Source: Onchidella celtica (taxonomy: Eukaryota > Mollusca > Gastropoda > Systellommatophora > Onchidiidae). From it: a stretch of DNA of 64,000 nucleotides. Both the position numbers and the translations under genes were made by a program. Below the pieces are notes generated by a model. It saw only the letters and a program-made list of their open reading frames with translations. It made no database searches and was not told where the DNA came from. Positions within the stretch are counted from its first letter, which is position 1; each line of letters begins with the position of its first letter. Positions 46,294 through 52,675 of this stretch are shown here, one piece after another. The stretch lies in contig OZ007575.1 in assembly GCA_963931925.1 (NCBI GenBank), positions 41,793,612-41,857,611 on the forward strand, given 5' to 3'.

Positions 46294-46942
46294 AGGCCTG
46301 TTTACACTGGTAGGTTTTAGGAATAGAAAAACGGAATCGCGGCCGTGGGGGAAGAACTCTCCTAGCTTTCCGATTTTTGCTTTCCGATTTCCCCCTCGAA
46401 ACGCGGCTTGTTTACACTAGTCCGTTTTCTGAATGAGAAGCGATGCGCATCGTTTGTTTTGGTCATGTGAGTGGGATGGACGCTCGCGTGGCGGCCGCTG
46501 GCCTCTCACTCGTCCAGCGAAGGAAATGTTCGGTTCAGGTTCAGCATTTCAATGTATGAATGTGAAATTAATCTGATCTTTCAAGGCTTTTATCACTCAC
46601 TAAAATTCCAAGGGCTTTAGTTCTCGTCTGCTTGTTATGACATGTGGGCGATTTAGTATCCCATAGACAGCTCTCGCCCTCAAGAATGTTTGGGTGAAAG
46701 TTTCTTCGATAGGTCTACCGAACGCCATTACACCGAGGCGGTAGTCACGTGACGCATAACCTTTCCGTAATCGGAATGAAAATAGGAATGGTCCTATTCC
46801 AGCGTTTCAGGGGGAAATCGGAAAGGAAATAGGAAAGGGTCGGATTCCATTCGGTTTTCGGAACAGTGTAAACCCGACAGGCTTTCCGCTAGATTTCCTT
46901 TCCTTTTTTCTATTCCTAAAACCTACCAATGTAAACAGGCCT
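46294..46942. mobile_element. PIF/Harbinger-like foldback MITE (649 bp)
   Basis: The left end AGGCCTGTTTACACTGGTAG faces the right end CTACCAATGTAAACAGGCCT, and the flanks are TTA on both sides (46291-46293, 46943-46945). A 3-bp TTA/TWA duplication is characteristic of PIF/Harbinger. The inverted repeat is long: TTTCCGATTTCCCCCT near 46380 faces GGGGGAAATCGGAAAGG near 46810, so each arm is over 100 bp. No transposase ORF is present. The centre (46440-46740) is GC-richer with ACGTGA. Confidence 0.9.
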
Positions 46943-47633: not shown

Positions 47634-48282
47634 AATAACGTTTATAGTCTATACTCATTTACAAAACTTTTTTCCAGATCTACACAAAACAACTGTTTCA
47701 GAATTTTACCAATATGTTGAAATCACATGGGTGTATTTAATTCTATGTTAAACTTAAAACCTCTGAATACAAAACAAAGATAAAGAAAGTTGTCAAGAAC
47801 AGATGAAGTCCATAAATGCCGTGCTAGGTCACGAGTTCAGTGAGTAAATTTTCACGACTTGTTAATTCTAACCAGCGTAATTTGTCCTTGAGCTGTTCTC
47901 GTGAACAGTTTGTTTGAAACACTTTTGTTTTAGAGATGGAAAGAAAGTGGGGCGAGATAGAATAAATGTATAGCTAGGAGTGACAGAGCCGTTCTCGACC
48001 CCGTGATTTTGATGAACACTTAGAAGGGAAGAGAAGGGGCGAATAAGGATAGATAGTTTAAGACGCTTAGTCGCGTTCAGAAATTCGTGCATAAAATGTA
48101 GAAAGCACGAGGGTTTAAAGATTTCAGTAGTTGTTTTGACATTTTAAATTGACCTTGTCTGTATTAGTGCAAGGCCGTAACCGACTTATACAATAGAATA
48201 AATTATACTGCGAGCTCAGCTCGGAGCTGACCGCACCAATGAAATCTAGGGATTTGGACGGTAGTTGCAGGTGGCTAGACAG

Positions 48283-48290
48283 TATAAAAG
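48283..48290 (+). promoter_or_regulatory. TATA-box-like sequence in unit 1
   Basis: TATAAAAG, about 25-30 bases before ATCCTGCACTCCA. Its position upstream of the hairpin cluster fits a pol II start there, but unit 2 does not keep it. Confidence 0.3.
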
Positions 48291-48352
48291 TCTGCCCAGA
48301 CATATATCCTGCACTCCATACAGAAAACTCCAATCTGTGCAGGCGTCGGCAC

Positions 48353-48490
48353 GATTCTGCCTGAAGAATCATAAAAGCGTTGTACGACTCATGTCTAGTC
48401 CACTATAGACATTTGAGATGAATCCATATGCCTGAATGAGATATGCCCACCGCTATTGTCCATCGTTCCCTGGTCTCTAACACCAGGGAA
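48353..48490 (+). ncRNA. Candidate structured RNA segment, unit 1 (three hairpins, then GTAAG)
   Basis: Hairpin 1: GATTCT 48353-48358 with AGAATC 48365-48370. Hairpin 2: CTCA-TGTCTA 48388-48397 with TAGACA-(TT)-TGAG 48406-48417. Hairpin 3: TTCCCTGGT 48466-48474 with ACCAGGGAA 48482-48490. A donor-like CGTAAG follows at 48495-48500. Each hairpin recurs in unit 2 with partner changes that keep pairing. A TATAAAAG lies 70 bases upstream. RNA status is inferred from covariation only. Confidence 0.4.
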
Positions 48491-48677
48491 TAATCGTAAG
48501 TGTTTGTCTATTGATGACTCAACCATGAACGAGGAGCTGAACATAAGTTATCCAGTAGGACAGGATTGCCGCATATACTAGGAGTGCTACCCAAGAATGC
48601 AAGATAAAGATATATATAGACTTGCAACTAGTATGAATGTATGGCATACACATCTGTGAATTGTGATTGATTTGTCT

Positions 48678-48749
48678 GGATGAGGCTGGGCATTGCCAGC
48701 CCATCCTAGAGTAGATCTCTAGACTTAACTACGTCAGTTTGTATTGACG
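48678..48749 (+). other. Second conserved hairpin group, unit 1
   Basis: GGATG-A-GGCTGG (48678-48689) pairs with CCAGCC-CATCC (48696-48706), an 11-bp stem with one bulged A; then CTAGAG/CTCTAG (48706-48722) and CGTCA/TGACG (48732-48749). Unit 2 has the same three at 51945-51973, 51973-51987 and 52002-52019. Confidence 0.6.
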
Positions 48750-50472
48750 GGCTCGATTATTATAAGCGTTAGGCACAAATGGCTGAGATGACATTGTCGC
48801 CAGAGACCATATTAGTGTATTGATTGATATATAGTAGGCAGACCAGATCTGAGATGTATATAATTAGTACTTAGATTGTTAGTGAGTCAGAAGTATAATA
48901 ATATTATAGGAATCTAGAGTAGAATTCTAGTGAGGTATTATTGAATTTGGATTTGATGCTGCTGATGTTGTCCTTACTATATAATAGATCTAGACAAAAT
49001 TGTTAGGGTAATTAATGTAATTAAATTTGTGGCCCTGCAGGTCTGTTTATGAAACTTATTCAGATTGTCCTTAGTGTGTGGCATGGTACGAAAGATTAAA
49101 TAGATATATAAAACTCTCGATTTAAAAGAATGCAGTCGAAGCCTTAAGTAGACGGATTCCCCCCAAATCCATAACATTAGGATAACAACATCGTAACAAA
49201 AGTGTCCCAAAAATAGACCGTGAAGGGCGTAAAGTGGCCGTCATCGTGCGGACTCGCCATAAAACCCAAAACTCAAACTCAGACCTTATTTACCAGATTC
49301 CGCATAATCTCTGACAGATGTACAAATACACTACGCCAAAAGAAGCAACAACATCTATGTACAAGTGATAGCAATTACTTGCTGGTTGGATGGGTCAGAG
49401 TTATGTACAGTAAACATCTTTGTCACGAGCAGGTGAGCTGGGATCAGTAGTTACGGGGGAAGGGGGTCGAGTAAAGTTAACCCACGGCCCACGGGTAATG
49501 AAAAGCGTGCATGTTGTGAGTGGGGGGGGGGGGGTCTGCATGAGGCGAGAGCGCTGTAGGACTATCACTGCAAGTTAGAAGGTCCCAGGGGACGGACGTG
49601 AGTGAGAACAGTCGGGAGATTGTGACAGTGTTTCCAGTGATGACTGGTAGGTGGAACGATGATTGATAATTATGATTGATGTATTATATTCGTCTACGAC
49701 CATGATGTAAATAAGTATATGTGAGGAATGTGGAAGTCCTTGATACTGTATATAGCAATGTGCGCCATGAGCGATAGATGGAAGTTAGCTTCATGGATTT
49801 GTAGCGAGAGTGAGTAGGGTGTAATACGGTGGAGGTGTTACCGTAAGATGTTTGGTGAGTGAAATGTGAACTAGTGTGTGTACGCTTCATGAGTTGTAAT
49901 GAGTGGTGAAGTGATTAGAAATGGTATGGTATTATACCAATGTAATGTTATTTTTGTAGGTGCCGGGGTCGGGCCGAAGAGCCGCCTACGGTGAGCACAG
50001 GGGATAGGCCAGCATAGGGCCGAAGGCCACACATAGGCCAGGAGTGAAGCTGTCGGTGTAGGACAGTCGCAGCACATGAGTCGTGGCAGTCTGGCCACAG
50101 ACAGGGATGTATATATGATCGTGAATGTGCTATTAAGATGTACTACTGTGACATGGATGTATTACTGTGCGAATGAGATATTCATGTGAATTGAAGTATT
50201 AACGTGCTATGGCCACGTGAGGTGTATAAGAGGCTAAAGTGTATTGCCATAGGGAGGCGCTATTGAGAGACTGTGGTGTGAAAGAATACTAGTGTGTCAT
50301 TAAGACCCTGAGTGGAGAGGCTGAGGTCGAGGTGTCTTTAGAAGTAATTACCGGGTTGTGGACCCGAGGAAGTGTGCTTACGGAAGAAGGCCGTGGACGG
50401 CAGTTAACTTGAAGAATATAATGTATGTATGTATGTAATTGCACTGTTATCCTTACCTTTATATTTATGTTT

Positions 50473-50478
50473 AATAAA
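50473..50478 (+). terminator. Possible polyadenylation signal
   Basis: AATAAA followed within 15-25 bases by a TG/GT-rich stretch (TGTGTGAGTCTGATGGGTTG). It could end a transcript starting in unit 1 and spliced to an exon beginning near 49960 (after TTTTTGTAG). Inferred without transcript data. Confidence 0.25.
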
Positions 50479-50620
50479 TGTGTGAGTCTGATGGGTTGTT
50501 CTGTTAAGTGTTATACTTGTTCGTTCGTGATTGTTGTCCTGTTATAACCATCGCATCTCCCAGTCTGGGATTTGTGACAATCTTTTTATATACTTATTAC
50601 ATCGAGAGAAGTTTAAGAGG

Positions 50621-50692
<72 letters not shown>
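50621..50692. repeat. (TCTA)n microsatellite
   Basis: About 18 pure units; a shorter TCTG/TCTA run at 50770-50810 belongs to the duplicated flank. Confidence 0.97.
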
Positions 50693-50774
50693 ACTGCCTG
50701 TCTGTGTTATATAATATATTATATATATACTTTATATATTTGCTACTTCGAGAGAAGTTTACGAGGTCTATCTC

Positions 50775-50809
<35 letters not shown>

Positions 50810-51206
50810 GAGATATATGAAAGACAGCCAGTGGTAATGAAACGAATAATCGGCCTCTTAAACTAATGTTTTCTTTTGCTTCGTACATCGGTTGTTTGGC
50901 TTTCATTTCCAGCTTCGAGTTCCTAGAATGAGAGACCAATTCTTTTGTGGTATGGCATCATGACTCACCAAGGGAGTTAATAGGTCTAGATTTTTCATCT
51001 TTCTCTGTTCGTTGTCTCCCATTGTCTATATATAGGATTGTGTTATGGTGGTAGTAGATCATTGTTTCCCTGTTGGAGTCAGCCTCAGTCTGTTTGTTAT
51101 TGAATTTGCTACAGTGCTATATTAATGATGTAAGTTGTCTTGTTTACAGCATCCGCTCCACTATTTTTACGGAAGATGACGTATGTGTCAGGGTTAGGAT
51201 TTGAAT

Positions 51207-52412
51207 TGCCGTGCTAGGTCACGCATTGTTTATTACATGGCATCATTGATTTTAGCCAGTGCAAACGTCCTTGAACTATTCCCGTGGACAGTTTGTTTTT
51301 GTAACGCTTTTCTTAGAGATGGAAAGAAAGTGGGTCAGGATAGAACGAATGGATAAATTAACAGTGACGATGCAGTTTTCGACCCCGTGGTTTGGGTGTA
51401 CTTTAACAGGGAAAGACGGGGCGAATAAGGAGTGAAGAAATTCGTACATAAAACGTTTAGGGTGTAGGGACTTTGCGAAAGGTTTTGACATCCTAGGTCT
51501 GACTTTGTCTGTTACTATTAATAGAATCTATTGGCGCTGCGAGCGGAGCTCGAAGTGGATGCACCTATCAAATTGGAGCAGTCACGTGGACTTGCAGGAG
51601 ATAAGCGAAGCCATCTTGAGATTTGGGCACTTCCATGTAGATCTTCCAGCTACGAAGGTCGTCGGCTAGAGGTTCAGCCAGAGAGAACCAACAGACTGTT
51701 AAGTCATGTCTATGTCCTGGATAGACAATGAAAATAATCCACAGCTATTTTCTCCAGTTCCCTGAAATCGTTTCAGGGAACCAATCGTAAGTTTCATCAC
51801 AATGATTCGAGATGATGTGAATCTGACCCTAACTTTCCAGTAGAAGTGCGACCAAAGGAATGCAAGACCATAAAGTTTTACTTGCAATTAAGATCTAGAA
51901 AGAGTGACTGATATACACATTTGTAAATTGTAATTGATGTGTCTGGATGAGGCTGGGGATTGCCAGCCCATCCTAGAACAGATCTAGATCTATCTTAACT
52001 ACGTCAGTGTGTCTTGACGGTTTGATCCTTTATAAGCAGTTAAATGAGTTAATATTGTCGTCTGAGACATAAGTAGAGTCTATATTATTTGTGAGATAGT
52101 AGGCAGTCTATATTTCTGAAGATAAATAATTGCTAGGTACACTGTGAATGAATCAGAATGATATAGAGCTTCAGATCTCTTAAGACTCTAGAGGAGATTG
52201 ATAGTTATGTATTTTAGTATTTTCATTTGATGCTGCTGATGTTGTCTTTTAATATGTAAACGATAGACGAAATTGTTAGGAATTTAAGTAATAAATTTGT
52301 GGCCCTACAAGGTCCTTGATATAACCTACTCGAAATTGTTATTAGTGTATGTGGCATGGTATGGCAGAGTAATTTCTAAACCCTCTCGATATTTATTAAA
52401 AATGCAGTCGAA
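51207..52412 (+). repeat. Diverged 1.2-kb direct repeat, unit 2 (structured, non-coding)
   Basis: Begins TGCCGTGCTAGGTCACG, 3390 bp from unit 1, same orientation. It keeps all the conserved blocks listed for unit 1, including GATGCTGCTGATGTTGTC at 52229-52246. The TATAAAAG of unit 1 is replaced by GATAAGCG here. Confidence 0.85.
51671..51781 (+). ncRNA. Candidate structured RNA segment, unit 2 (three hairpins, then GTAAG)
   Basis: Hairpin 1: GGTTC 51671-51675 with GAACC 51685-51689. Hairpin 2: TCA-TGTCTAT 51704-51713 with ATAGACA-(A)-TGA 51721-51731. Hairpin 3: GTTCCCTGAAA 51757-51767 with TTTCAGGGAAC 51771-51781. CGTAAG follows at 51786-51791. Same order and similar spacing as unit 1. Confidence 0.4.
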
Positions 52413-52675
52413 CACGTAAATTGATAATTAACCATCCCCGTAAAACACGAGCACAGTAATCCCCATCTGTAACACCATTCTTTGAACTCGTAACACTCGA
52501 GGACCCAGCTCGTAACAGTATGAAAACATCTCTTTGCCTCTATGGCGATGAGAAGCGTAGCGGAAAGGGTGCTGTGGACAAGTACCCAAAAGCAAAGACT
52601 GTTGTACGTCATTGTCTGTAAAAAGAACGAAGCAGAGCGAATGCTGTGGACCAGAGCTGTTGTAGGCGGACCAAA

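Follow-up and report, generated by a model that had tools for sequence, protein, structure and literature searches.

Here we describe two homologous non-coding units in a 64,000-nucleotide stretch of the genome of the gastropod Onchidella celtica (assembly GCA_963931925.1, contig OZ007575.1, forward-strand positions 41,793,612 to 41,857,611), referred to as the window and numbered from its first letter. The units are solo long terminal repeats (LTRs) that belong to two subfamilies of a single kind of Ty3/gypsy retrotransposon, which is abundant, was recently active and has the domain order of the Gmr1 type. Each unit carries six hairpins, which very probably lie in the R region of the LTR. What looked like a new non-coding RNA turns out in this way to be a concrete example of an LTR retrotransposon, some copies of which were inserted recently, and hairpins common to diverged non-coding units can be the leader structure of a transposon. 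The family has thousands of LTR motif matches and no fewer than six subfamilies in this single genome, and would make it possible to test, outside the retroviruses, whether the RNA structure of LTRs evolves jointly with their splice donors and poly(A) choice.

Two solo LTRs of a Ty3/gypsy retrotransposon

Unit 1 (positions 47791 to 49198, + strand, 1,408 bp, TGTCAAGAAC...ATCGTAACA) and unit 2 (51186 to 52517, + strand, 1,332 bp, TGTCAGGG...CTCGTAACA) are identified as solo LTRs because both have TG...CA ends and each is flanked by its own 5-bp duplication, AAAGT at 47786 to 47790 and 49199 to 49203 for unit 1 and GTATG at 51181 to 51185 and 52518 to 52522 for unit 2. Unit ends were set by comparison with dispersed genomic copies. 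Unit 2 belongs to a diverged subfamily, with 68.5% identity to unit 1 over the 852-nt stretch compared. A sequence-only reading of the window had already described the units as homologous yet diverged, which is borne out, and had bounded them at 47817-49140 and 51207-52412, which the ends given above replace. Neither unit contains an open reading frame (ORF) of at least 100 amino acids, and a comparison of nine ORFs of the window with Pfam gave one match, below its cut-off. Solo LTRs usually remain after the two LTRs of an integrated element have recombined, and both units would have arisen in this way.

Related loci have the same ends. Both borders (TGTCA...CGTAACA) were located by motif in 25 of the 30 unit-1-type loci fetched, four being without a left and one without a right border; 21 of these 25 have an exact 5-bp duplication, and the rest match at 2-4 of 5 positions. 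Among unit-2-type loci found by BLAST, the left border was located in 29/30 and the right border in 24/30, and nine pairs are the two LTRs of longer elements.

The 22-nt LTR motif, searched with up to two mismatches, has 4,825 matches in the 1.14-Gb genome, while the reversed control has none. With a 421-nt query taken from unit 1, 2,180 candidates appeared at first look, and all 40 that were scored, unit 1 included, show 99-100% identity over the whole query. The unit-2 query gave 2,562 candidates, and many of the 40 scored are same-strand pairs about 7.2-8.0 kb apart. In full-length relatives the LTR spacing is 7.2-8.1 kb. The first 100 motif places listed include 19 same-strand neighbour pairs 7.4-8.1 kb apart and five pairs 3.7-4.0 kb apart. 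All nine unit-2-type LTR pairs that were compared have matching 5-bp duplications, and in six the LTRs are identical over the compared length, which indicates recent insertion and activity; the other three pairs match at 1279/1280 (with 53 gap positions), 1329/1331 and 1281/1283 positions. Elements of the unit-2 type have CTGGAGAGGGACCC, which resembles a primer-binding site, 3' of the upstream LTR, and a G-rich polypurine tract 5' of the downstream LTR. Full-length evidence for the unit-1 type consists of a motif pair and the start of gag only.

The coding content was read, unaltered, from two different copies, one of which supplied a 5' piece (L061) and the other a 3' piece (L062). The gag frame of 432 amino acids, read in one copy, matches Pfam SCAN with 28.9 bits against a cut-off of 27 and terminates in a stretch that by eye is zinc-knuckle-like. 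In the pol frame, likewise from one copy, the order is Integrase_H2C2 (24-82), rve (98-195), RVT_1 (514-672) and RNase H (762-865). Among the best 60 of 237 matches to solved structures, Ty3 Gag-Pol ranks first, over its reverse transcriptase part, and prototype foamy virus provides the top-ranking separate integrase chains. The unit-1-type element L136, whose 5' LTR (L125) falls in the unit-1 cluster, has the same gag start as the unit-2-type element; therefore both subfamilies are the same kind of element. About 1.5 kb separate the primer-binding site from gag in L061 (1-1478), a stretch with GAGAGAGA-rich runs and repeated TTTGCAGTTTAAGTGATACTGCC.

An integrase upstream of the reverse transcriptase is given as the trait of the Gmr1 clade within Ty3/gypsy in PMC8220671 and PMC6238403, and the vertebrate SCAN domain is said in PMC4592553 to resemble the gag capsid of Gmr1-like elements. 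With the Gmr1 clade of Ty3/gypsy (Metaviridae) the present element shares the Ty3/gypsy-type reverse transcriptase, the upstream integrase and the SCAN-type gag domain. Its LTRs are long (1.3-1.4 kb) and bear hairpins and GTAAGT.

The sequence-only reading knew no described family with such a layout and implied a stand-alone structured RNA family spread by tandem duplication. That view could draw on the conserved hairpins and on the lack of long ORFs in the units, but it is refuted by the 5-bp duplications of each unit, its TG...CA ends and the full-length elements: gag-pol elements have nearly identical sequences as both of their LTRs, and the motif matches run to thousands. Rfam gave no match at the gathering score in the window and none at E<=1 in positions 47700-52600, and no tRNA match was found in the window. 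The chance that an RNA gene of this kind is present is close to nil. A terminal-inverted-repeat or non-LTR transposon is ruled out by the TG...CA ends, the 5-bp duplications and the gag-pol interiors of relatives. MicroRNA or telomerase-RNA hairpins, searched for with Rfam only, were dropped once the LTR ends had been found.

Layout of the LTR and positions of the hairpins

All features of this section lie on the + strand. Unit 1 has a TATA box (TATAAAA, 48283 to 48289) and a conserved initiator-like block (CACTCCAT, 48312 to 48319), at which transcription would start, so that R is predicted to begin about 30 nt downstream of the TATA box. A splice-donor-like GTAAGT within CGTAAG follows at 48496 to 48501, and a poly(A) signal ATTAAA at 49020 to 49025. 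In unit 2 a degenerate GATAAG (51600 to 51605) stands at the TATA position, followed by the initiator-like CACTTCCAT (51628 to 51636), GTAAGT (51787 to 51792) and AATAAA (52290 to 52295).

These features were followed through a sample of 73 LTRs from the 100 listed motif places, covering about 30.8 Mb of contig C1, together with units 1 and 2; left out of the 100 places were the second members of the 19 long and five short pairs and three others. Removal of one LTR that could not be aligned (L096) and merging of two duplicates left 72 distinct LTRs in six subfamilies. At the place of the TATA box, 74 LTRs show a TATA-type motif in 47 cases, GATAAG in 13, neither in 13, and no initiator block in one; a TATA-type motif or GATAAG stands 28-30 nt 5' of the CACTCCAT-like block in 59 of the 74. 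GTAAGT is found 156-185 nt 3' of the initiator block in at least 64 of the 73 LTRs that have this block; in the alignment 70 of 74 LTRs carry it at the corresponding position, and the remaining four read GTAAG-. The poly(A) signal, as A[AT]TAAATTTGTGG (A[AT]TAAA, then TTTGTGG), is present about 500-530 nt 3' of GTAAGT in 58 of 60 loci; these loci are the best matches of the unit-1 and unit-2 queries, with the two LTRs of each of the nine pairs among them. This LTR layout was not found described for Ty3/gypsy in the searches made of open-licence papers, none of which was aimed at the order of the parts alone.

Hairpin 1 has a stem of 5 bp, GATTC/GAATC in unit 1 (48353 to 48370) and GGTTC/GAACC in unit 2 (51671 to 51689). 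Hairpin 2 (48392 to 48411; 51707 to 51727) pairs over 6-7 bp. Hairpin 3 lies 5 nt 5' of GTAAGT and has 8-9 bp, TTCCCTGGT/ACCAGGGAA in unit 1 (48466 to 48490), with the core TTCCCTGAAA/TTTCAGGGAA in unit 2 (51759 to 51780). Hairpin 4 is located at 48598 to 48626 and 51861 to 51886, hairpin 5, of 5+6 bp, at 48678 to 48706 and 51945 to 51973, and hairpin 6, of 6 bp with a near-fixed G-U, at 48732 to 48749 and 52002 to 52019. The stems quoted in the sequence-only reading for hairpins 1 and 3 are exact in both units, and its count of six hairpins in the same order was recovered, perhaps not with the same six, as only two had been quoted. CGTAAG, which it had named, is present at 48495 and 51786; of the six hairpins recovered here, 1 to 3 lie before it and 4 to 6 after it. 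Since hairpins 1 to 3 lie between the predicted start at the TATA/initiator-like block and GTAAGT, and hairpins 4 to 6 between GTAAGT and the poly(A) signal, all six would be in R.

Possible selection on the hairpins and alternative explanations

The hairpin region was chosen in the sequence-only reading for its hairpins; the copies were not. A blind scan of the alignment gave 65 stems with a minimum length of 5 bp and with pairing in 85% or more of the sequences; among these, hairpins 1 and 3 show two pairing-preserving double events each and the remaining stems none, except for three longer-range ones. Nine local stems (at least 5 bp, loop 3-12, at least 95% paired) were counted in the 72 LTRs, where 300 column shuffles, which ignore neighbouring-base content, gave 1.33 on average and never more than 7; two of the nine overlap hairpin 5 or 6, and hairpin 4, with its longer loop, is not among them. 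Watson-Crick double events on one branch occur in two stems, hairpins 1 and 3, as the sole ones of the nine, compared with at most one in the 300 column shuffles. If one counts, less strictly, every stem in which some pair occurs in two Watson-Crick types, the observed number is again two, and 4/300 shuffles reach it.

In hairpin 1 one pair is double-compensated, with A-T in 56 and G-C in 14 sequences. Two pairs of hairpin 3 occur in two Watson-Crick types, G-C in 29 and A-T in 42 sequences (changed on one branch) and T-A in 56 and A-T in 13 (the arms changed on different branches). The outermost pair of hairpin 3 is often unpaired in subfamilies other than those of units 1 and 2; without it, 571 of 575 cells are Watson-Crick. 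Hairpin 2 has no double changes, and fewer broken pairs than the null described below. The stems of hairpins 4 and 6 are conserved, and hairpin 5 is nearly invariant with three substitutions in 22 columns. The earlier claim that paired changes imply selection on RNA, for which a covariation test on a larger alignment had been proposed, accordingly survives in part: in the 72 LTRs the stems are kept and hairpins 1 and 3 show double changes, but these amount to three pairs, and hairpins 4 to 6 have none. The evidence for selection on hairpins 1 to 3 is moderate, and for hairpins 4 to 6 there is nothing beyond conservation.

Stems that were merely inherited from a common ancestor and drift slowly, with no selection on pairing, would account for double changes that are mostly single events on one deep branch each (the rarer type of the three covarying pairs is found in 13, 14 and 29 of about 71 sequences), and the four shuffles that also yield two stems with a two-type pair agree with this. 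Against a tree-based null that keeps the substitution number of each column, hairpins 4, 5 and 6 do not differ in broken pairs (P=0.198, 0.459 and 0.461), again as inheritance would predict, whereas hairpins 1 and 2 have fewer broken pairs than expected from their substitutions (P=0.007 and 0.027; 0.065 for hairpin 3 with its outermost pair included) and hairpin 3 has more two-type pairs (P=0.024; 0.35 for hairpin 1), all P values being uncorrected for six hairpins. We regard inheritance by itself as unlikely. A mutational origin of the matched arm changes appears similarly improbable: template switching of the reverse transcriptase within a hairpin can copy one arm onto the other and homogenise quasi-palindromes, the family encodes a reverse transcriptase and has recent insertions, the double changes are few, and the two in hairpin 3 adjoin its loop (48473/48483 and 48474/48482). 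Yet the stems persist over six subfamilies while the loops vary in sequence and length, the arms at 48474/48482 changed on different branches, as selection via intermediates would give, and some single changes passed via G-U, the cells of hairpins 1 to 3 holding 13 G-U against 4 A-C and nine other mispairs.

The inverted repeats might also act as DNA, for instance as binding sites of dimeric proteins in the promoter region. LTRs carry regulatory DNA sites, and the - strand folds as strongly as the + strand. Such sites would be located downstream of the TATA/initiator-like block, and the wobble pairs lean towards + strand RNA, with 22 G-U against 6 A-C cells (nine of the 22 at one hairpin 2 pair) even when the near-fixed G-U of hairpin 6 is excluded; this last pair, present in 68/70 sequences, would read as a mismatched A-C on the opposite strand. 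A function as DNA is on these grounds quite unlikely, and selection on hairpins 1 to 3 as RNA remains the preferred explanation.

Several observations weigh against reading the units as Gmr1-type LTRs with selected leader hairpins. Double compensation is confined to three base pairs in hairpins 1 and 3, hairpins 4 to 6 lack covariation, and each of the three longer-range stems from the blind scan also has one double event. Folding z values of -2.67 and -2.68 on the + strand and of -1.63 and -3.84 on the - strand leave the strand undecided by energy. A TATA-type motif is missing at its place in 27 of the 74 LTRs, including most unit-2-like subfamilies. The transcription start, the borders of R, the use of the donor and polyadenylation are predictions from sequence rather than from transcripts, and no copy of the predicted spliced-junction pattern was found in the genome with up to two mismatches. 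An acceptor-like TACTAACTTTACAG (TACTAAC..TTTACAG) stands 13 nt 5' of the gag ATG in the unit-2-type element L061, but is not kept in L136 and L137, which have TACTAAT without TTTACAG; the stretches of L138 and L139 start too close to the ATG to cover the place. The probable assignment to Gmr1, finally, follows from domain order and the SCAN-like gag instead of a protein phylogeny.

Possible leader function, related systems and further observations

Hairpins in R would occur at both ends of the element RNA, and hairpins 1 to 3 would form its first 160-180 nt, terminating at the conserved GTAAGT. As elements of the 5' leader they may act on donor and poly(A) choice. In the 5' LTR, U1 small nuclear ribonucleoprotein (snRNP) bound to GTAAGT would keep the poly(A) signal, 500-530 nt further 3', from being used, and would permit splicing of the leader where an acceptor precedes gag; the adjoining hairpin 3 would tune access to the donor, and the same sequence in the 3' LTR would then allow polyadenylation. 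This donor and poly(A) step is a tentative proposal. It would mean that a Ty3/gypsy LTR evolved, independently of foamy viruses, a structured leader and a donor that precede the poly(A) signal of the same LTR in R, and that a U1 site under hairpin control decides whether the RNA is read through, as in the 5' LTR, or polyadenylated, as in the 3' LTR, a scenario that we put forward as possible while holding it to be doubtful.

In foamy viruses, as described in PMC3694450, the splice donor lies in R, upstream of the poly(A) signal. The present LTR shows the same order of sequence features, from promoter and start through structured leader and GTAAGT to the poly(A) signal, and has a hairpin directly 5' of the donor-like site, the use of which as a donor is predicted here. 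The present element differs in not being a retrovirus and in its predicted R of about 700 nt, against the 193 nt stated for prototype foamy virus. In the leader of human immunodeficiency virus 1 (HIV-1) the TAR, poly(A) and donor hairpins are stem-loops in R or the leader, near the donor and the poly(A) signal. The HIV-1 donor is located downstream of the 5' LTR (PMC3694450), whereas GTAAGT is inside the LTR here. Stem-loops near a donor-like site and a poly(A) signal are alike in both, a likeness of description for which no homology is claimed. Retrozymes and the small-RNA-bearing LTRs of Cassandra, Helenus and Ajax also have structured RNA embedded in LTRs, but the present relatives encode gag and pol, as read in pieces, and the window is without Rfam or tRNA matches.

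Same-strand triplets of the LTR motif with a spacing of 3,973-3,993 bases occur on C1 at 1139262-1147208 and 22726057-22734028, which suggests shorter elements in tandem LTR-internal-LTR-internal-LTR arrays. Four unit-1-type loci (L002, L011, L016 and L028) have other first 21 bases (TGTCACGAACACAATGTCTTC) with the same 3' end, a 5'-end variant of the LTR, and carry their own 5-bp duplications, three exact and one matching at 4/5 positions. Between the two solo LTRs, at about 49417-50579, the window contains another interspersed repeat, with 82-90% matches in the flanks of L044, L055, L052 and L004; in L044 and L052 a unit-2-type LTR is apparently inserted into the matching repeat. At 46295-46941 there is a 647-bp element resembling a miniature inverted-repeat transposable element, with near-perfect terminal inverted repeats (35/36 bases, GGCCTGTTTACAC...) and the flanks TTAA/TTTA.

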